Below, in pieces: positions 3,690 to 8,366 of a stretch of DNA of 64,000 nucleotides. The position numbers were made by a program, and so were the translations under genes. Source of the DNA: Pseudomonadota bacterium (lineage in GTDB: Bacteria > Pseudomonadota > Alphaproteobacteria > Micropepsales > Micropepsaceae); the NCBI GenBank assembly GCA_018241025.1, contig JAFEEQ010000018.1, positions 1 to 64,000 on the forward strand, read 5' to 3'. The notes under the pieces are model-generated. The model had not been told where the DNA came from. It did not search any database and saw only the letters and a list, made by a program, of their open reading frames with translations. Each line of letters begins with the position of its first letter. The first letter of the stretch is position 1.

Positions 3690-4457
3690 ATGACCGGCGC
3701 GGCGCTTCACGCAGCGCCAAATGCCATGCGCCGCGGCGTGCCGGAGATGGCCGGGCTGGTGGCGATTGCGGCCCTGTTCCTCACCCTCAGCGAAGCGTTC
3801 GGCCTCGATGTGCTGCCTGTGCTGCCGCGGCTTCTCTATTGGCTGGTGCTGCTGGCGAGCGGTCAGCTGCTCGGCACGGTGTTCTGGCGGCTGACGGAGC
3901 AAATGCCGCTCGCCGCGTCGCATCCCTATCTCATGGCGTCCCTGAATTGCCTGGCCCTGAGCCTGCCCTGGACGGTGATCGCCTGGGCGGTGACGGCCTA
4001 TACGCTCGATCAGCCGCTGCGCTGGGCGCGCCTGCCGGGGTTCTTCCTGCCGGTACTCGTGGTGGCGGGCGCGATGGCGGCGCTCAATGCGATGCGCAAC
4101 CGTCAGCCGGTCGAGACACATGCTGCGAGCCCTTCGGCGGCGCGCCCGGCGATCTTCGCGCGCTTTCCGGCCAAGCTGCGCGGTGCGGCGCTGCATGCGG
4201 TGCAGGCCGAGGATCACTACATCCGGCTGCATACCAGCGCGGGCAGCGACCTCATGCTTCTACGGTTCTCCGACGCAATGGCCGAGCTCGACGGCATCGA
4301 GGGCGCGCAGATTCATCGGTCCTGGTGGGTGGCGCGCGATGCCGTTGCGGGTGCGTCCCGCGAGGACGGCCGCCTCGTTCTTGTCCTGCCCGGCAATCTG
4401 AGGGCGCCGGTCAGCCGAAGCTTTGCCCGTGCCCTCCGGGCCAAAGGCTGGTTCTGA
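3690..4457 (+). CDS. Membrane-anchored LytTR-type DNA-binding regulator
   Basis: About 255 residues. The N-terminal half holds four hydrophobic segments (for example LVAIAALFLTLSEAF, LLYWLVLLASGQLLG, LPWTVIAWAVTAYTL and FFLPVLVVAGAMAAL). The C-terminal 100 residues match the LytTR fold: LHAVQAEDHYIRLHT, then IHRSWWVARDAV and a final SRSFARALRAKGW strand. LytTR domains bind short direct repeats with beta-strand loops. The membrane part probably senses a signal or anchors the protein; no receiver domain is present. It is divergent from the DUF2306-like gene. The start at 3690 is the first that clears that gene; 3588 would overlap its 5' end. Confidence 0.85.
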   Translation: MTGAALHAAPNAMRRGVPEMAGLVAIAALFLTLSEAFGLDVLPVLPRLLYWLVLLASGQLLGTVFWRLTEQMPLAASHPYLMASLNCLALSLPWTVIAWAVTAYTLDQPLRWARLPGFFLPVLVVAGAMAALNAMRNRQPVETHAASPSAARPAIFARFPAKLRGAALHAVQAEDHYIRLHTSAGSDLMLLRFSDAMAELDGIEGAQIHRSWWVARDAVAGASREDGRLVLVLPGNLRAPVSRSFARALRAKGWF

Positions 4458-4558: not shown

Positions 4559-6337
4559 ATGACAGGTTGCGACATATGTTTTGTCGTTCCGGCGTTCAGT
4601 TCGGTTCAGCACACGCCGATCGGCGTTTCGGTCCTGACCGCGGCGTGCCGCGCCAAAGGCCTCCGCGTTGCGACCGTCTATGCCAATCTGATGCTCGCCG
4701 CGCGCGTCGGCTACGAGGTCTATGAAGAGATCAGCGCGGTCCTGCCGACCAAGCAGACCGGCGAATACATTTTCAAGCCGCATGCCTATCCGCCCGACGT
4801 GCTGGCGCGGATCCCGGCGGGTGTCGACGCACCCCGGAAGGCCGAGCTGACCGCTGCTGTTGCGCCGGCGATCGACGGCCATCTCGACGAGGCCGCTGCC
4901 GCCGTCGCCGCGACGCGGCCGCGCATCGTCGCGCTCACCAGCACGTTCCAGCAGAATCTCGGGGCCATTGCCGTCGCGCGGCGGGTGCGGGCGACCTTGC
5001 CCGAGGTGCTGATCGTGCTGGGCGGTGGCAATGTCGCCGGCGTGATGGCGGACGGGCTCGCCCGCACCTTCGACTGTGTCGACCACTTCTTCGACGGCGA
5101 GGGCGATGTCGTGTTCCCCGTCTTCTGCGCCGATTATCTGCGCGACGGGACGCGGCCGCCGTCGCGTGTCGTGCCCTGCGAGCCGGTTGCCGATCTCGCC
5201 GCCGTGCCGTTGCAGGATGACAGCGACTTCGCCGCGGCGCTCGCCGTCTATCAGGCGGATGGAAGGCTGCCGGCGAGCCTGCCGCATTATGCCGATTACG
5301 AGTCCTCGCGCGGCTGCTGGTGGGGCGCCAAGCATCACTGCACGTTCTGCGGACTCAACGGCCAGGGCATGACGTTTCGCGAGAAGACGGCGGATCGCGT
5401 CGTGGAGGAAATCGACACGGTGGCGCGGCAGTGGCCCGACCGGCTGATCCGCACGACCGACAACATCATGCCGACCAGCTTTTTCGACGGCGTGCTGCCG
5501 CGCCTGGCGGCGCGCGAAAAGCGCCCAGCGCTGTTCTACGAGGTCAAGGCCAACCTCAAGGACGAACAGATCGCGGCGATGCGGCGCGCCGGCATCGTCT
5601 CGATCCAGCCCGGCATCGAGGCGCTCTCGACGCCGGTGCTCAAGCTGATGCGCAAGGGCGTGTCGGCGCAGCAGAACATCATGCTGCTGCGGATGTGCGC
5701 GAAGCACGGCATGCACGTAGGCTGGAACCTGATCTACGGTTTTCCGGGCGAGGAGTTGCAGCACTATCGCGACGTGCTCGCGCTCCTGCCGTCGCTCACG
5801 CATCTGCGGCCGCCGGACGGATTCTCGCGCATCATGCTTGATCGCTTCAGCCCCTATCACAGCGATCCCGGGCAGTTCGGGATTTCGGGGGTCCATGCCT
5901 TCGAAAGCTATCGCGGGCTCTATCCGCAGGATGCGCCGCTCGACGACATCGCCTATCACTTCCGGGGCCGCTACACGACGCCGCTGCTCGACGACACGGA
6001 TTTTCTTGCCGAGTTCAGCGGGGCGGTGAAACGCTGGCAGTCGCTGTGGCGCAAGCGCGGTGCCGAGCCCCGGCTCGAGCTCGTGCAGACCGAAGGCGGC
6101 CGGACGGTGGTGAGCGACAGCCGCGGGCCGAAACCGGCCATCGCGATGCTGTCGCGCGGCGCGGTCGATGCTCTGGCGTTCTTCGAGCGTCCGCGCCGTC
6201 CAGGCGAAGTGCCCGAGGCCGTTGCCGGGCATCTCGACGAGCTGCTCGCGCGCCGCTTCGTGGTCGATCATGAAGGGCTGCTGCTCAGCCTCGTCGTGCG
6301 CGAGGCCGTCGTCTCCCGGGTTTTCGAGAGCGCTTAG
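4559..6337 (+). CDS. RiPP maturation radical SAM protein 1 (B12-binding type)
   Basis: This 592-residue protein matches the family of radical SAM enzymes acting on ribosomally made peptides (rSAM_ocin_1 type). Residues 1-220 form a cobalamin-binding-like Rossmann part (VVPAFSSVQHTPIGVSVLT, VLGGGN, FDGEGD). The radical SAM core follows, with the cluster cysteines at C253, C261 and C264 in RGCWWGAKHHCTFCGLNG, a CX7CX2C spacing typical of this family rather than CX3CX2C. GIEALS and NLIYGFPGE are further core motifs. No precursor-peptide gene is recognisable in the 100 bp on either side, so the substrate is unknown. Neighbours are a LytTR regulator upstream and a BlaI/M56 pair downstream. Confidence 0.9.
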   Translation: MTGCDICFVVPAFSSVQHTPIGVSVLTAACRAKGLRVATVYANLMLAARVGYEVYEEISAVLPTKQTGEYIFKPHAYPPDVLARIPAGVDAPRKAELTAAVAPAIDGHLDEAAAAVAATRPRIVALTSTFQQNLGAIAVARRVRATLPEVLIVLGGGNVAGVMADGLARTFDCVDHFFDGEGDVVFPVFCADYLRDGTRPPSRVVPCEPVADLAAVPLQDDSDFAAALAVYQADGRLPASLPHYADYESSRGCWWGAKHHCTFCGLNGQGMTFREKTADRVVEEIDTVARQWPDRLIRTTDNIMPTSFFDGVLPRLAAREKRPALFYEVKANLKDEQIAAMRRAGIVSIQPGIEALSTPVLKLMRKGVSAQQNIMLLRMCAKHGMHVGWNLIYGFPGEELQHYRDVLALLPSLTHLRPPDGFSRIMLDRFSPYHSDPGQFGISGVHAFESYRGLYPQDAPLDDIAYHFRGRYTTPLLDDTDFLAEFSGAVKRWQSLWRKRGAEPRLELVQTEGGRTVVSDSRGPKPAIAMLSRGAVDALAFFERPRRPGEVPEAVAGHLDELLARRFVVDHEGLLLSLVVREAVVSRVFESA

Positions 6338-6432: not shown

Positions 6433-6448
6433 TGCCAATTTTTTGGCA
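6433..6448. promoter_or_regulatory. Inverted repeat TGCCAA-TTTT-TTGGCA at the blaI-like start
   Basis: A perfect 6-bp inverted repeat with a T4 spacer ends on the A of the ATG of the BlaI-like gene. It replaces any recognisable Shine-Dalgarno sequence. Position and symmetry suit an autoregulatory operator of a BlaI-type dimeric repressor, or a leaderless start. It does not match the staphylococcal TACA/TGTA operator. Confidence 0.45.
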
Positions 6449-6855
6449 TGGTTCGCAAGGCACGCAGCCGCGACGGCGGCACCGACGGTTTCTCGCGCCG
6501 CGAGCGCGAGATCATGGACGCGCTCTACAAGCTGGGCAAAGCCACCGCGGCGCAGATTCTCGAGCAGATCCCCGATCCGCCGACCTATACGGCGATCCGC
6601 ACCCAGCTCACCATTCTCGAGAAGAAGGGCCATGTGCGGCACAAGAGCGACGGCACACGCTATATCTACGAGCCTTCGGTGGCGCGCGAGCAGATGGGCC
6701 GGCGCGCGATCGACTCGCTGCTCTCGACCTTCTTCGACAATTCGGTGGAACGCGCCGTCGCCGCGCTGATCACGCGCGACGATGCCGACATCTCGGCCGA
6801 CGAGCTCGAAAGCCTGTCGCGCCTGATCGAAAAAGCCAAACGGGAGGGACGATGA
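6448..6855 (+). CDS. BlaI/MecI/CopY-family transcriptional repressor
   Basis: A 135-residue winged-helix repressor: FSRREREIMDALYKLGKATA, recognition region YTAIRTQLTILEKKGHV, wing HKSDGTRYIYEP, then a helical dimerisation tail. Such repressors are inactivated by cleavage triggered by a partner M56 membrane peptidase. That partner is the next gene, overlapping by 4 bp (ATGA). No obvious ribosome site precedes the ATG; an inverted repeat occupies that place instead. The regulated genes are not evident; its own operon is the simplest target. Confidence 0.93.
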   Translation: MVRKARSRDGGTDGFSRREREIMDALYKLGKATAAQILEQIPDPPTYTAIRTQLTILEKKGHVRHKSDGTRYIYEPSVAREQMGRRAIDSLLSTFFDNSVERAVAALITRDDADISADELESLSRLIEKAKREGR

Positions 6856-8366
6856 GCGAGATCGCGATCCTCAATATGCTGCTGTTTTCCGGCGAGCTGT
6901 TCGCCGCCTCCAGCCTTGTCGTGGCCGTGGCCTATGCCGCGACGCGGCGCGGACCGGCGGCGCGGCGTCACCTGATCTGGTGCGCCGCTCTCGCATCGCT
7001 TCTCCTGCTTCCGCTCCTCGCGGCGGCGATCCCCGGCCGCGCGATCGCCACACTGCCCGCGCCGGCGGTGGCCGCAGACGTTCCGGCCAACCTCGCGCTT
7101 GCCGCGCTGCCGGCGGTTCAGGCGCCGCCGGCGACCGAAAGCTTCCACATCGATGCCGCGACGGTGATCGTTGTGTTGGCGGAATTGTGGGCGGCGGGCG
7201 CGTTGCTGATCCTGCTGCGGAGCGGGATCGCCACGCTGGTGCTGCGGCTTTTCCTGCGCGACAGCAGCGAGGCGCCGTTCGAACCGGTCGAGTTGCCCGA
7301 AGTCGCGCGCCTGTCGCGGGTGCGTCTGCGCGTATCCAATCGCGAGCGCGGACCGATCACCTGGGGCCTGTTCCGGCCGGTGATCCTCCTGCCGCGCCAG
7401 TCGCTCTATTGGCCGTGTGAAAGATTGCAGGCGGTGATGCGCCACGAATTCGCGCATGTGCAGCGCCACGATGGCCTCACCCAGGCGCTGTCGCTGCTGG
7501 TCTGCGCGCTCTACTGGCCCAATCCGCTGGTCTGGCTCGGCTTCCGCGAGCAGCGCCGCGCAGCCGAGATGGCGGCCGACGACGCGGTGATCGTCTCGGG
7601 CATGACGCCGTCCGAATATGCCGGCGAACTGCTCCAGGTCGCGGCTGAATTCAAAGGCCGCGCGCCGGCCGCGGCGCTGCTGATGGCGGCGCCCTCGACG
7701 CTCGGCAACCGCGTGCAATCGATCCTGTCTCCATCCCAGAACCGAAGGGGAGTAACCGCCATGGATATCCTGAAGACGGCCGGCATCGCGCTCCTGGCCA
7801 CGACGGCGCTCGTCGTTGCGCGCCCGTCGTTCGCGCAGGAAGCGCCGCCGCCGGTGCCCAACGTCGCCGCACCGATTCCGCCGGCGCCCGATGCACCGGC
7901 CACGCTGCCGGCGCCCGCCGCCATGCCGGAGCCCGCCGCCATGCCGGCGCCCGAAGCGCCGCCCGCGCCGCCGGCACCGCCGGTGATCGACCGCAAGGTG
8001 CGTATCATCCGGATCGGCGACGCACCGGATGCGAAGGGCCATCATCACCGGACGATCCGCGTCGAAGTCGATACGCCCGATGCCGATGCGATCCGCGCCG
8101 AAATTCAGCCCGACCTCGACCGCGCCATGGCCGACGTCAAGGCGCATCAGGCGGAGATCTATCGCATCAAGCTGGTAATGCCGAAGGTGAAGGCCGATGT
8201 CGCCAAGGCGCTCGCCGAGGTCCGCGCGCAGCTGGCGCAGATCGACGACCCGAAGATCCGCGCCAAGGTCGAAGCCGCGCTCGCCCGCGCGCAGAAGAGC
8301 ATCGAGACCTCAGGCCCGAGCTGGGACTCGCTACCGGATGCGCCCGACGCGCCCGATGCGCCTTAA
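6852..8366 (+). CDS. BlaR1/MecR1-like M56 peptidase with non-standard C-terminal sensor
   Basis: 504 residues. Three N-terminal membrane helices precede an M56 zinc-peptidase domain with HEFAH at 198-202 and a downstream Glu at about 239 (RRAAEMAADDAVI). A fourth hydrophobic stretch (GIALLATTALVVARPSFA) leads into a long Pro/Ala linker and a charged, helical tail with KVKADVAKALAEVRAQLAQI-like heptads. No penicillin-binding domain follows, unlike true BlaR1, so the stimulus is probably not a beta-lactam bound covalently. It presumably relieves repression by the overlapping BlaI-like protein. The last codons overlap the convergent DinB gene by 4 bp. Confidence 0.85.
   Translation: MSEIAILNMLLFSGELFAASSLVVAVAYAATRRGPAARRHLIWCAALASLLLLPLLAAAIPGRAIATLPAPAVAADVPANLALAALPAVQAPPATESFHIDAATVIVVLAELWAAGALLILLRSGIATLVLRLFLRDSSEAPFEPVELPEVARLSRVRLRVSNRERGPITWGLFRPVILLPRQSLYWPCERLQAVMRHEFAHVQRHDGLTQALSLLVCALYWPNPLVWLGFREQRRAAEMAADDAVIVSGMTPSEYAGELLQVAAEFKGRAPAAALLMAAPSTLGNRVQSILSPSQNRRGVTAMDILKTAGIALLATTALVVARPSFAQEAPPPVPNVAAPIPPAPDAPATLPAPAAMPEPAAMPAPEAPPAPPAPPVIDRKVRIIRIGDAPDAKGHHHRTIRVEVDTPDADAIRAEIQPDLDRAMADVKAHQAEIYRIKLVMPKVKADVAKALAEVRAQLAQIDDPKIRAKVEAALARAQKSIETSGPSWDSLPDAPDAPDAP

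Follow-up and report, generated by a model that had tools for sequence, protein, structure and literature searches.

PoyC is a C-methyltransferase that acts on the beta-carbon of Ile and Val, and CX7CX2C has been named its unique motif; PoyB and PoyC together represent two C-methyltransferases that modify one precursor, that of polytheonamide (PMC11285071, in the sections available). ApyD, a B12 radical SAM enzyme that gives rise to beta-methyltyrosine, is a RiPP C-methyltransferase described as RRE-containing (PMC11117315, in excerpt).

Kinase-type lasso systems, such as paeninodin, SyanK, pseudomycoidin, and bsf, contain genes for B1 (PqqD), B2, a cyclase, and a kinase; pseudomycoidin and bsf have nucleotidyltransferase genes as well, and the paeninodin type has a terminal Ser (excerpts of PMC9266682 and PMC10368454). 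The bsf precursor carries a Y-x-x-P-x-L motif at positions -17 to -12, and exceptions to the leader Thr, with Ile or Val at position -2, have been published (PMC10368454, in excerpt). A 2022 review of lasso modifications has only C-terminal methyl esters in its methylation section (PMC9266682); it adds Asp methylation elsewhere, and side-chain C-methylation is not among the section headings in the parts available (PMC9266682). A search of the open-access literature by title, in which one review dates from 2022, found no side-chain C-methylated lasso peptide. The TIGR03975 family and kinase-type lasso systems are already known; an association of a TIGR03975 clade with lasso precursors, with one member unlinked from them, was not found in print in the open-access literature.

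Here, we analyzed a gene in a 64-kb stretch of DNA (the window; its genome is designated G000) that the first-pass annotation had described as encoding a full-length RiPP-type B12 radical SAM enzyme with a CX7CX2C motif. This description was borne out: the open reading frame is intact, without an internal stop, and its product scores 533 bits against TIGR03975 (RiPP maturation radical SAM C-methyltransferase; cut-off 281.85). The three Cys residues (C253, C261, and C264, located inside RGCWWGAKHHCTFCGLNG) are invariant in 7/7 and 30/30 aligned relatives. The best solved structures for an AlphaFold2 model of the enzyme (pLDDT 90.8) are cobalamin radical SAM enzymes, including OxsB (Z 20.0, rmsd 3.3, 381 aligned), TokK (Z 19.7, rmsd 4.5, 410 aligned), CysS (Z 18.5, rmsd 4.5, 395 aligned), and TsrM (Z 16.7, rmsd 4.2, 408 aligned), so that both the CX7CX2C motif and the cobalamin radical SAM fold are present (Table 1). 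Like other B12 radical SAM families, the enzyme might act on a non-peptide substrate (a lipid, hopanoid, or cofactor), and there are weak cross-matches to the HpnR, HpnJ, and BchE models. However, all three are far below their cut-offs, whereas the TIGR03975 score is far above its own, and we consider a substrate of this kind very improbable.

Table 1. Features of the enzyme gene and its neighbors, with positions in the window
Feature	Position	Strand	Basis
LytTR-domain membrane protein (neighbor, not counted in the system)	3726-4457 (start could be 3588)	+	Pfam LytTR
B12-binding radical SAM RiPP C-methyltransferase, group A	4559-6337	+	592 aa, ATG start, TIGR03975 score
B12-binding-like stretch, residues 110-186	4886-5116	+	Pfam PF02310, 28.1 bits, below cut-off 32.1
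Radical SAM core, residues 249-409	5303-5785	+	Pfam PF04055, 57.6 bits, cut-off 29.5
Iron-sulfur motif C253-x7-C261-x2-C264	5315-5350	+	Read from sequence
C-terminal winged-helix-like domain, residues about 505-580	6071-6298	+	hhalign, model of domain
BlaI (Penicillinase_R; neighbor, not counted in the system)	6448-6855	+	Pfam
Peptidase_M56 (neighbor, not counted in the system)	6852-8366	+	Pfam

The C-terminal winged-helix-like domain is perhaps a built-in leader-binding (RRE-like) module. With hhalign, it matched a PqqD profile derived from lasso loci (probability 61, P 8e-5; 38 and 3.4e-4 in the reverse direction), and three other regions of the enzyme gave at most 0.6. A model of the domain alone aligned with the lasso B1 protein 6jx3 at Z 5.1 (rmsd 2.9, 64 aligned), a score tied by unrelated winged helices, and a Foldseek search with the domain alone returned no match at E <= 0.001.

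The neighbors named in the first-pass annotation, a LytTR protein and a BlaI/M56 pair, were recovered by Pfam; the enzyme is separated by 101 bp from the LytTR ORF upstream and by 110 bp from BlaI downstream. A precursor gene alongside is said to be usual for TIGR03975 enzymes but does not define the family. None of the short frames in the two gaps is precursor-like, none has a ribosome-binding site score in a simple test, and the 64-kb window contains no match to the lasso-gene profiles or to the precursor profile discussed below, in accord with the earlier statement that no precursor lies beside the enzyme. Examination of close homologs, an earlier suggestion, revealed that a precursor is likewise absent from the flanks in the three nearest relatives, and its absence is therefore not peculiar to the window's assembly. 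The earlier interpretation stands with regard to a RiPP-type enzyme whose substrate is encoded elsewhere, which we favor, and falls with regard to a nitrile hydratase-like leader: the NHLP leader model TIGR03793 had no match across the window's genome even at E <= 1.

BlaI and M56 were considered as members of the system and rejected. Relatives of M56 occur in 11 of 41 genomes, and the enzyme is present within the 1.5-kb flanks of only two of these 11 loci, the window's own and that of G002, where the enzyme also adjoins BlaI-M56 and uvrB; G010 has a BlaI-M56-uvrB block without the enzyme and carries its own copy on another contig. These neighbors therefore provide no functional hint.

The 41 genomes searched for the enzyme included the window's own, 24 others from the same genus, and 16 from its class. 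Matches at E <= 1e-20 were detected in five genomes: G000 (two), G002 (two), G004, G005, and G010 (two). The closest to the window enzyme among the matches listed were from Sphingomonas sp. QA11 (60% identity), G010 (59%), and G002 (56%), and these proteins form with it a group, designated group A (support 100/100), that occurs in at least four genomes. In all group A genomes found (at least four), the flanks of the enzyme gene are devoid of a precursor. In QA11, nucleotidyltransferase-like and HprK-like genes are located 5-7 kb downstream of the enzyme, past housekeeping genes. A close plasmid copy was ruled out in the plasmid collection, in which all 38 records were below 60% identity (36.9% for the first among the 15 matches listed).

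Phylogenetic analysis involved 90 enzyme ORFs, of which 85 rows remained in a first tree after duplicate removal and a length filter (L025, L026, and L029, which duplicate L018, L021, and L019, were left out of the trees) and 29 chosen rows entered a second. Group A is nested in a 16-row clade (support 99/98 in the 29-row tree). The quick 85-row tree placed it among lasso rows; since the careful 29-row tree united the lasso rows in 20% of 200 bootstrap trees, we claim clade membership only. The next nearest relatives (from Sphingomonas, Sphingopyxis, Caulobacter, and an acidobacterium) mostly belong to gene clusters that contain, besides a lasso-cyclase-like gene and a precursor of 44-52 aa, various combinations of PqqD (B1), B2, HprK-like kinase, and nucleotidyltransferase genes. 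A lasso-cyclase-like gene was found in the flanks of 8/16 clade rows versus 0/69 other rows of the 85-row tree (one-sided Fisher 2.7e-7, with tree rows that are non-independent and flanks that differ in length). The lasso-gene profiles were built from the clade's own neighbors and could miss divergent genes elsewhere, and 37 of the 60 outside loci cover 15 kb or more. For all eight cyclase-like genes of the clade, the NCBIfam lasso cyclase model was the top match at 216-316 bits, relative to an "exception" cut-off of 525. A ninth clade row is the paralog from the window's genome, which has only precursors, and no cyclase-like gene, in its flanks. Outside the clade, other profiles gave a PqqD match in L070 (33 and 36 bits) and weak FAD-oxidoreductase, TPR, or sulfotransferase matches in L037, L039, L045, L048, and L075. 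In the gaps beside the enzymes of L018, L021, L024, and L027, frames with [WYF]-P spacing could be listed, none of them lasso-precursor-like by eye.

Several other arrangements were observed in this family. Two clade members are organized tail to tail with overlapping ends in Sphingomonas pruni (L031:7845-11713), forming another C-methyltransferase pair. Several adjacent TIGR03975 enzymes are present in each of the stretches L052, L089, L091, L095, and L056, with Eremiobacterota accounting for three of the five; L052 has three such enzymes in 8.5 kb, the last one broken off at the contig end, and L089 has four in 17 kb. In Sphingomonas caeni, a single stretch carries a second cyclase-like gene with a cysteine-bearing candidate precursor ending in GLGTDGASCCSWYLS (L036:13724-15752). 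A distant TIGR03975 member (L023, G005:C57) is part of an operon-like row of genes, whose other members we take to be a TauD-like dioxygenase, a thioesterase-like gene, and an ABC transporter.

The paralog in the window's genome (group B; G000:C9:168062-169801), at 168 kb on the same contig, is 45% identical to the window enzyme, and two tandem lasso-like precursors precede it (G000:C9:167.5-168.0 kb). These precursors end in PWSAPRLLKTTSARDGETGINFGPEILILIS and VWNAPRLIKMTSARDIETNNNVGAEILILIS, with the tails GPEILILIS and GAEILILIS. In their last 32 codons, including the stop, 23 codons encode the same residue; among the codons that differ, 14 are synonymous and 9 are not, and third positions are the least conserved (12/32, versus 23 and 26 of 32 for the other two). 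This pattern indicates that the two ORFs are maintained as peptides. The first has a GTG start; the second lacks a convincing start codon, which counts against the explanation favored below. Homologous precursors are found close to the sister enzymes in both G010 and QA11, together with cyclase-, kinase-, and PqqD-like genes.

A precursor profile was built from four sequences, the two tandem copies and those of G010 and QA11. In the window's genome, it detected two additional, unlinked precursors: one that shares the aliphatic tail type (C7:60.05-60.2 kb, ending in GINLGPEIVLILS, E 1.1e-9) and one on contig C18 (203.9-204.06 kb, ending in GIHLGGVDKGKYS, E 4.8e-4). In G002, which had no row in the profile, it detected a precursor ending in NIEPGPEILILIS, with the tail GPEILILIS (E 1.7e-8). 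Around the C7, C18, and G002 precursors, the profiles detected no core lasso gene in the stretches covered; on C18, the contig ends 0.7 kb beyond the precursor. Two candidates were rejected. A profile match in G028 (E 0.001) was judged to be due to chance, as it falls within a 285-aa frame and the surrounding region, by eye, also encodes an alanyl-tRNA-synthetase-like frame; and a DNA pattern match in G029 ends in TGG rather than a stop codon. The DNA pattern misses the G002 precursor, in which the Ser codon is AGC.

All seven intact precursors of this profile (A2), i.e., four from the window's genome and those of G002, G010:C76, and QA11, have an acidic residue at core position 7 or 8 and a W-x-x-P-x-[L/F] leader motif 16-17 residues before core residue 1. 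At the register chosen, the core is 13 residues long, and its first residue is Gly in five and Asn in two of the seven precursors; this register is a choice, since others also keep the acidic residue within positions 7-9. The leader residue at position -2 is Glu in all seven at this register, and the usual Thr is absent, which is another point against the explanation favored below. In G010:C67 (L137:10160-10583), a second EILIL-type tail, GILFGPEILILLS, continues a frame in overlap with a transposase-like ORF, and a PqqD-like gene adjoins it; the arrangement resembles a lasso locus interrupted by an insertion.

Lasso machinery in the window's genome is spread over several contigs. A locus on contig C8 has cyclase-like, kinase-like, PqqD, B2, and nucleotidyltransferase genes and, by eye, an ABC-transporter-like gene. 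Its B2 (NF033537, 86.1 versus 33 bits) is the sole copy in this genome, and its PqqD and NTP_transf_5 proteins are above their cut-offs. The kinase-like protein is below family cut-offs (34.6 versus 200 and 29.3 versus 33.3), and the cyclase-like gene (G000:C8:93-1766; L106:93-1766) lies at the contig start and lacks its C-terminal part, covering positions 4-272 of 354 in PF00733; both features also count against the explanation favored below. A short perfect palindrome lies directly before the cyclase-like gene, near the contig end, and the truncation may be an assembly effect. NF033535 was the top model for three cyclase-like proteins of this genome, at 258.9 (C8), 318.4 (C2), and 309.7 (C34), relative to an "exception" cut-off of 525. 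The C2 (L114) and C34 (L115) loci are lasso-like clusters with cyclase-like and PqqD-like genes and their own precursors (cores GMIHNGVEPSSPPQVPS and GINPSYTFESRGVNSSTAGS, respectively), without B2, and no radical SAM gene is present in the stretches covered. Their neighbors include genes that we take to be sulfotransferase-like. Near lasso clusters of G000, G010, and G007, small proteins occur two or three in a row (L115:11420-13064, L157:4445-5563, and L158:5883-6959), and these are presumably phage tail-collar-domain-like.

The truncated cyclase-like gene on C8, the lack of linkage of the enzyme, and the fusion of the second G010 tail to a frame overlapping a transposase-like ORF could all be read as signs that the enzyme has no present substrate and is the remnant of a lasso cluster since lost or disrupted. 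This we find quite improbable: the 592-aa frame is intact and retains all invariant residues, and its maintenance in at least four genomes at 56-60% identity points to long selection on the group A enzyme.

Enzyme and precursor had the same distribution within the genus. The group A enzyme was found in 3/25 same-genus genomes (G000, G002, and G010), and profile A2 at E <= 0.01 identified the same three genomes, in addition to the chance-like match in the class genome G028. Because the profile contains rows from G000 and G010, the honest held-out test is G002 alone, which is the only one of 23 genomes with either the enzyme or the precursor (1 in 23 by chance); the QA11 precursor is part of the profile by construction. 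A wider draw of 385 class genomes (five from the same genus), with fewer candidates scored per genome, yielded only the window's own precursors at E <= 1e-4 and none in the 384 others. The lasso B2 gene (PF13471) occurs in all three group A genomes of the genus versus 1 of 22 other same-genus genomes.

This match between the distributions, together with the lasso association across the clade, argues against a reading in which the substrate is a RiPP precursor of another kind or a protein missed by our profiles and the joint presence of the enzyme with lasso genes reflects inherited history. The empty flanks throughout group A are in line with that reading, as is the fact that TIGR03793 is the one leader family excluded genome-wide, and we regard it as unlikely, yet the most serious of the alternatives. 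A different substrate within the same genome is also conceivable: the enzyme could act on another of the lasso precursors (the C2 or C34 core, or the lone C18 precursor) and leave the EILILIS cores to the paralog alone. These three precursors carry the same W-x-x-P leader motif, and the C2 and C34 clusters have cyclase-like and PqqD-like genes with no radical SAM gene of their own in the stretches covered. However, in G002 an EILILIS precursor occurs alongside the group A enzyme in a genome without a group B paralog, and an aliphatic EI[LV]-tail precursor is present in 4/4 of the group A genomes found (at least four), which makes this alternative rather improbable in our judgment.

We lean, by a little, toward the explanation that the window enzyme is a PoyC-type cobalamin-dependent radical SAM C-methyltransferase that acts in trans on lasso-type precursors encoded elsewhere. 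Several observations speak against it, in addition to those already mentioned. The enzyme and precursors are not physically linked, and the paralog alone might methylate these precursors. G007 has lasso genes but neither the enzyme nor an EILILIS-type precursor. Finally, two further clade members, L027 (S. caeni) and L031a (S. pruni), also stand alone, and their genomes gave no good match to the precursor profile (none in G042; best E 0.03 in G044); the substrates of these two enzymes must therefore differ.

From the computed family and clade assignments, precursors, machinery, and co-occurrence, we infer that the window enzyme uses these precursors, along with the positions that it methylates, the order in which the steps occur, and threading. 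The likely substrates would be 13-residue cores in which a 7-residue ring segment ([G/N]1 to E7) is followed by an all-aliphatic tail with Ser at its end; these are the two tandem copies at G000:C9:167.5-168.0 kb and the single copy at G000:C7:60.05-60.2 kb. Binding of the W-x-x-P-x-[L/F] leader would involve either the enzyme's own C-terminal winged-helix domain or a PqqD-type B1 protein, and the enzyme would abstract hydrogen from unactivated carbons of Ile, Leu, or Val in the tail and add a methyl group from methylcobalamin. Methylation would precede the action of the kinase, B2, and cyclase, and the group B paralog may take other positions, as in the PoyB/PoyC split on polytheonamide. The kinase, B1, B2, and cyclase of the scattered lasso loci (C8, C2, and C34) would then finish the peptide, and the added bulk of the tail residues might hold the thread fast in a small ring.

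A further-reaching proposal, which we put forward as speculative and hold to be less probable than its negation, is that these genes constitute a dispersed system for a new lasso type, with 13-residue cores, a 7-residue ring, and an aliphatic tail (I-L-I-L-[I/L]-S or I-V-L-I-L-S) whose unactivated carbons receive methyl groups from two unlinked B12 radical SAM enzymes. The enzymes, precursors, and cyclase would be on different contigs and united by selection alone, and the methyl groups would serve as steric stoppers. If true, lasso peptides would gain side-chain C-methylation, and RiPP mining around single genes would miss systems with scattered parts, which have been reported for lanthipeptide proteases (PMC8960859, in excerpt). 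Orphan TIGR03975 enzymes also receive a concrete substrate hypothesis, i.e., the precursors of their sister enzymes.

With regard to known systems, the window enzyme is, like ApyD, a B12 radical SAM RiPP C-methyltransferase (PMC11117315, in excerpt), but it does not belong to the ApyD family, since it scores 44 bits versus a family cut-off of 750. By motif description, it resembles PoyC in having CX7CX2C and a second methyltransferase, here the paralog (PMC11285071, in the sections available). In contrast to PoyC, which is encoded in the poy cluster and has a core on the scale of 49 residues, the window gene is unlinked and its likely substrates are 13-residue lasso-type cores. The window's genome shares with kinase-type lasso systems the B1, B2, cyclase-like, kinase-like, and nucleotidyltransferase genes and the terminal Ser, and its W-x-x-P-x-[L/F] leader motif is comparable to the Y-x-x-P-x-L motif of bsf. 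It differs from them in the scattering of these genes over contigs, the C-methyltransferases of the TIGR03975 clade, Glu at leader position -2, and the all-aliphatic tail that precedes Ser.
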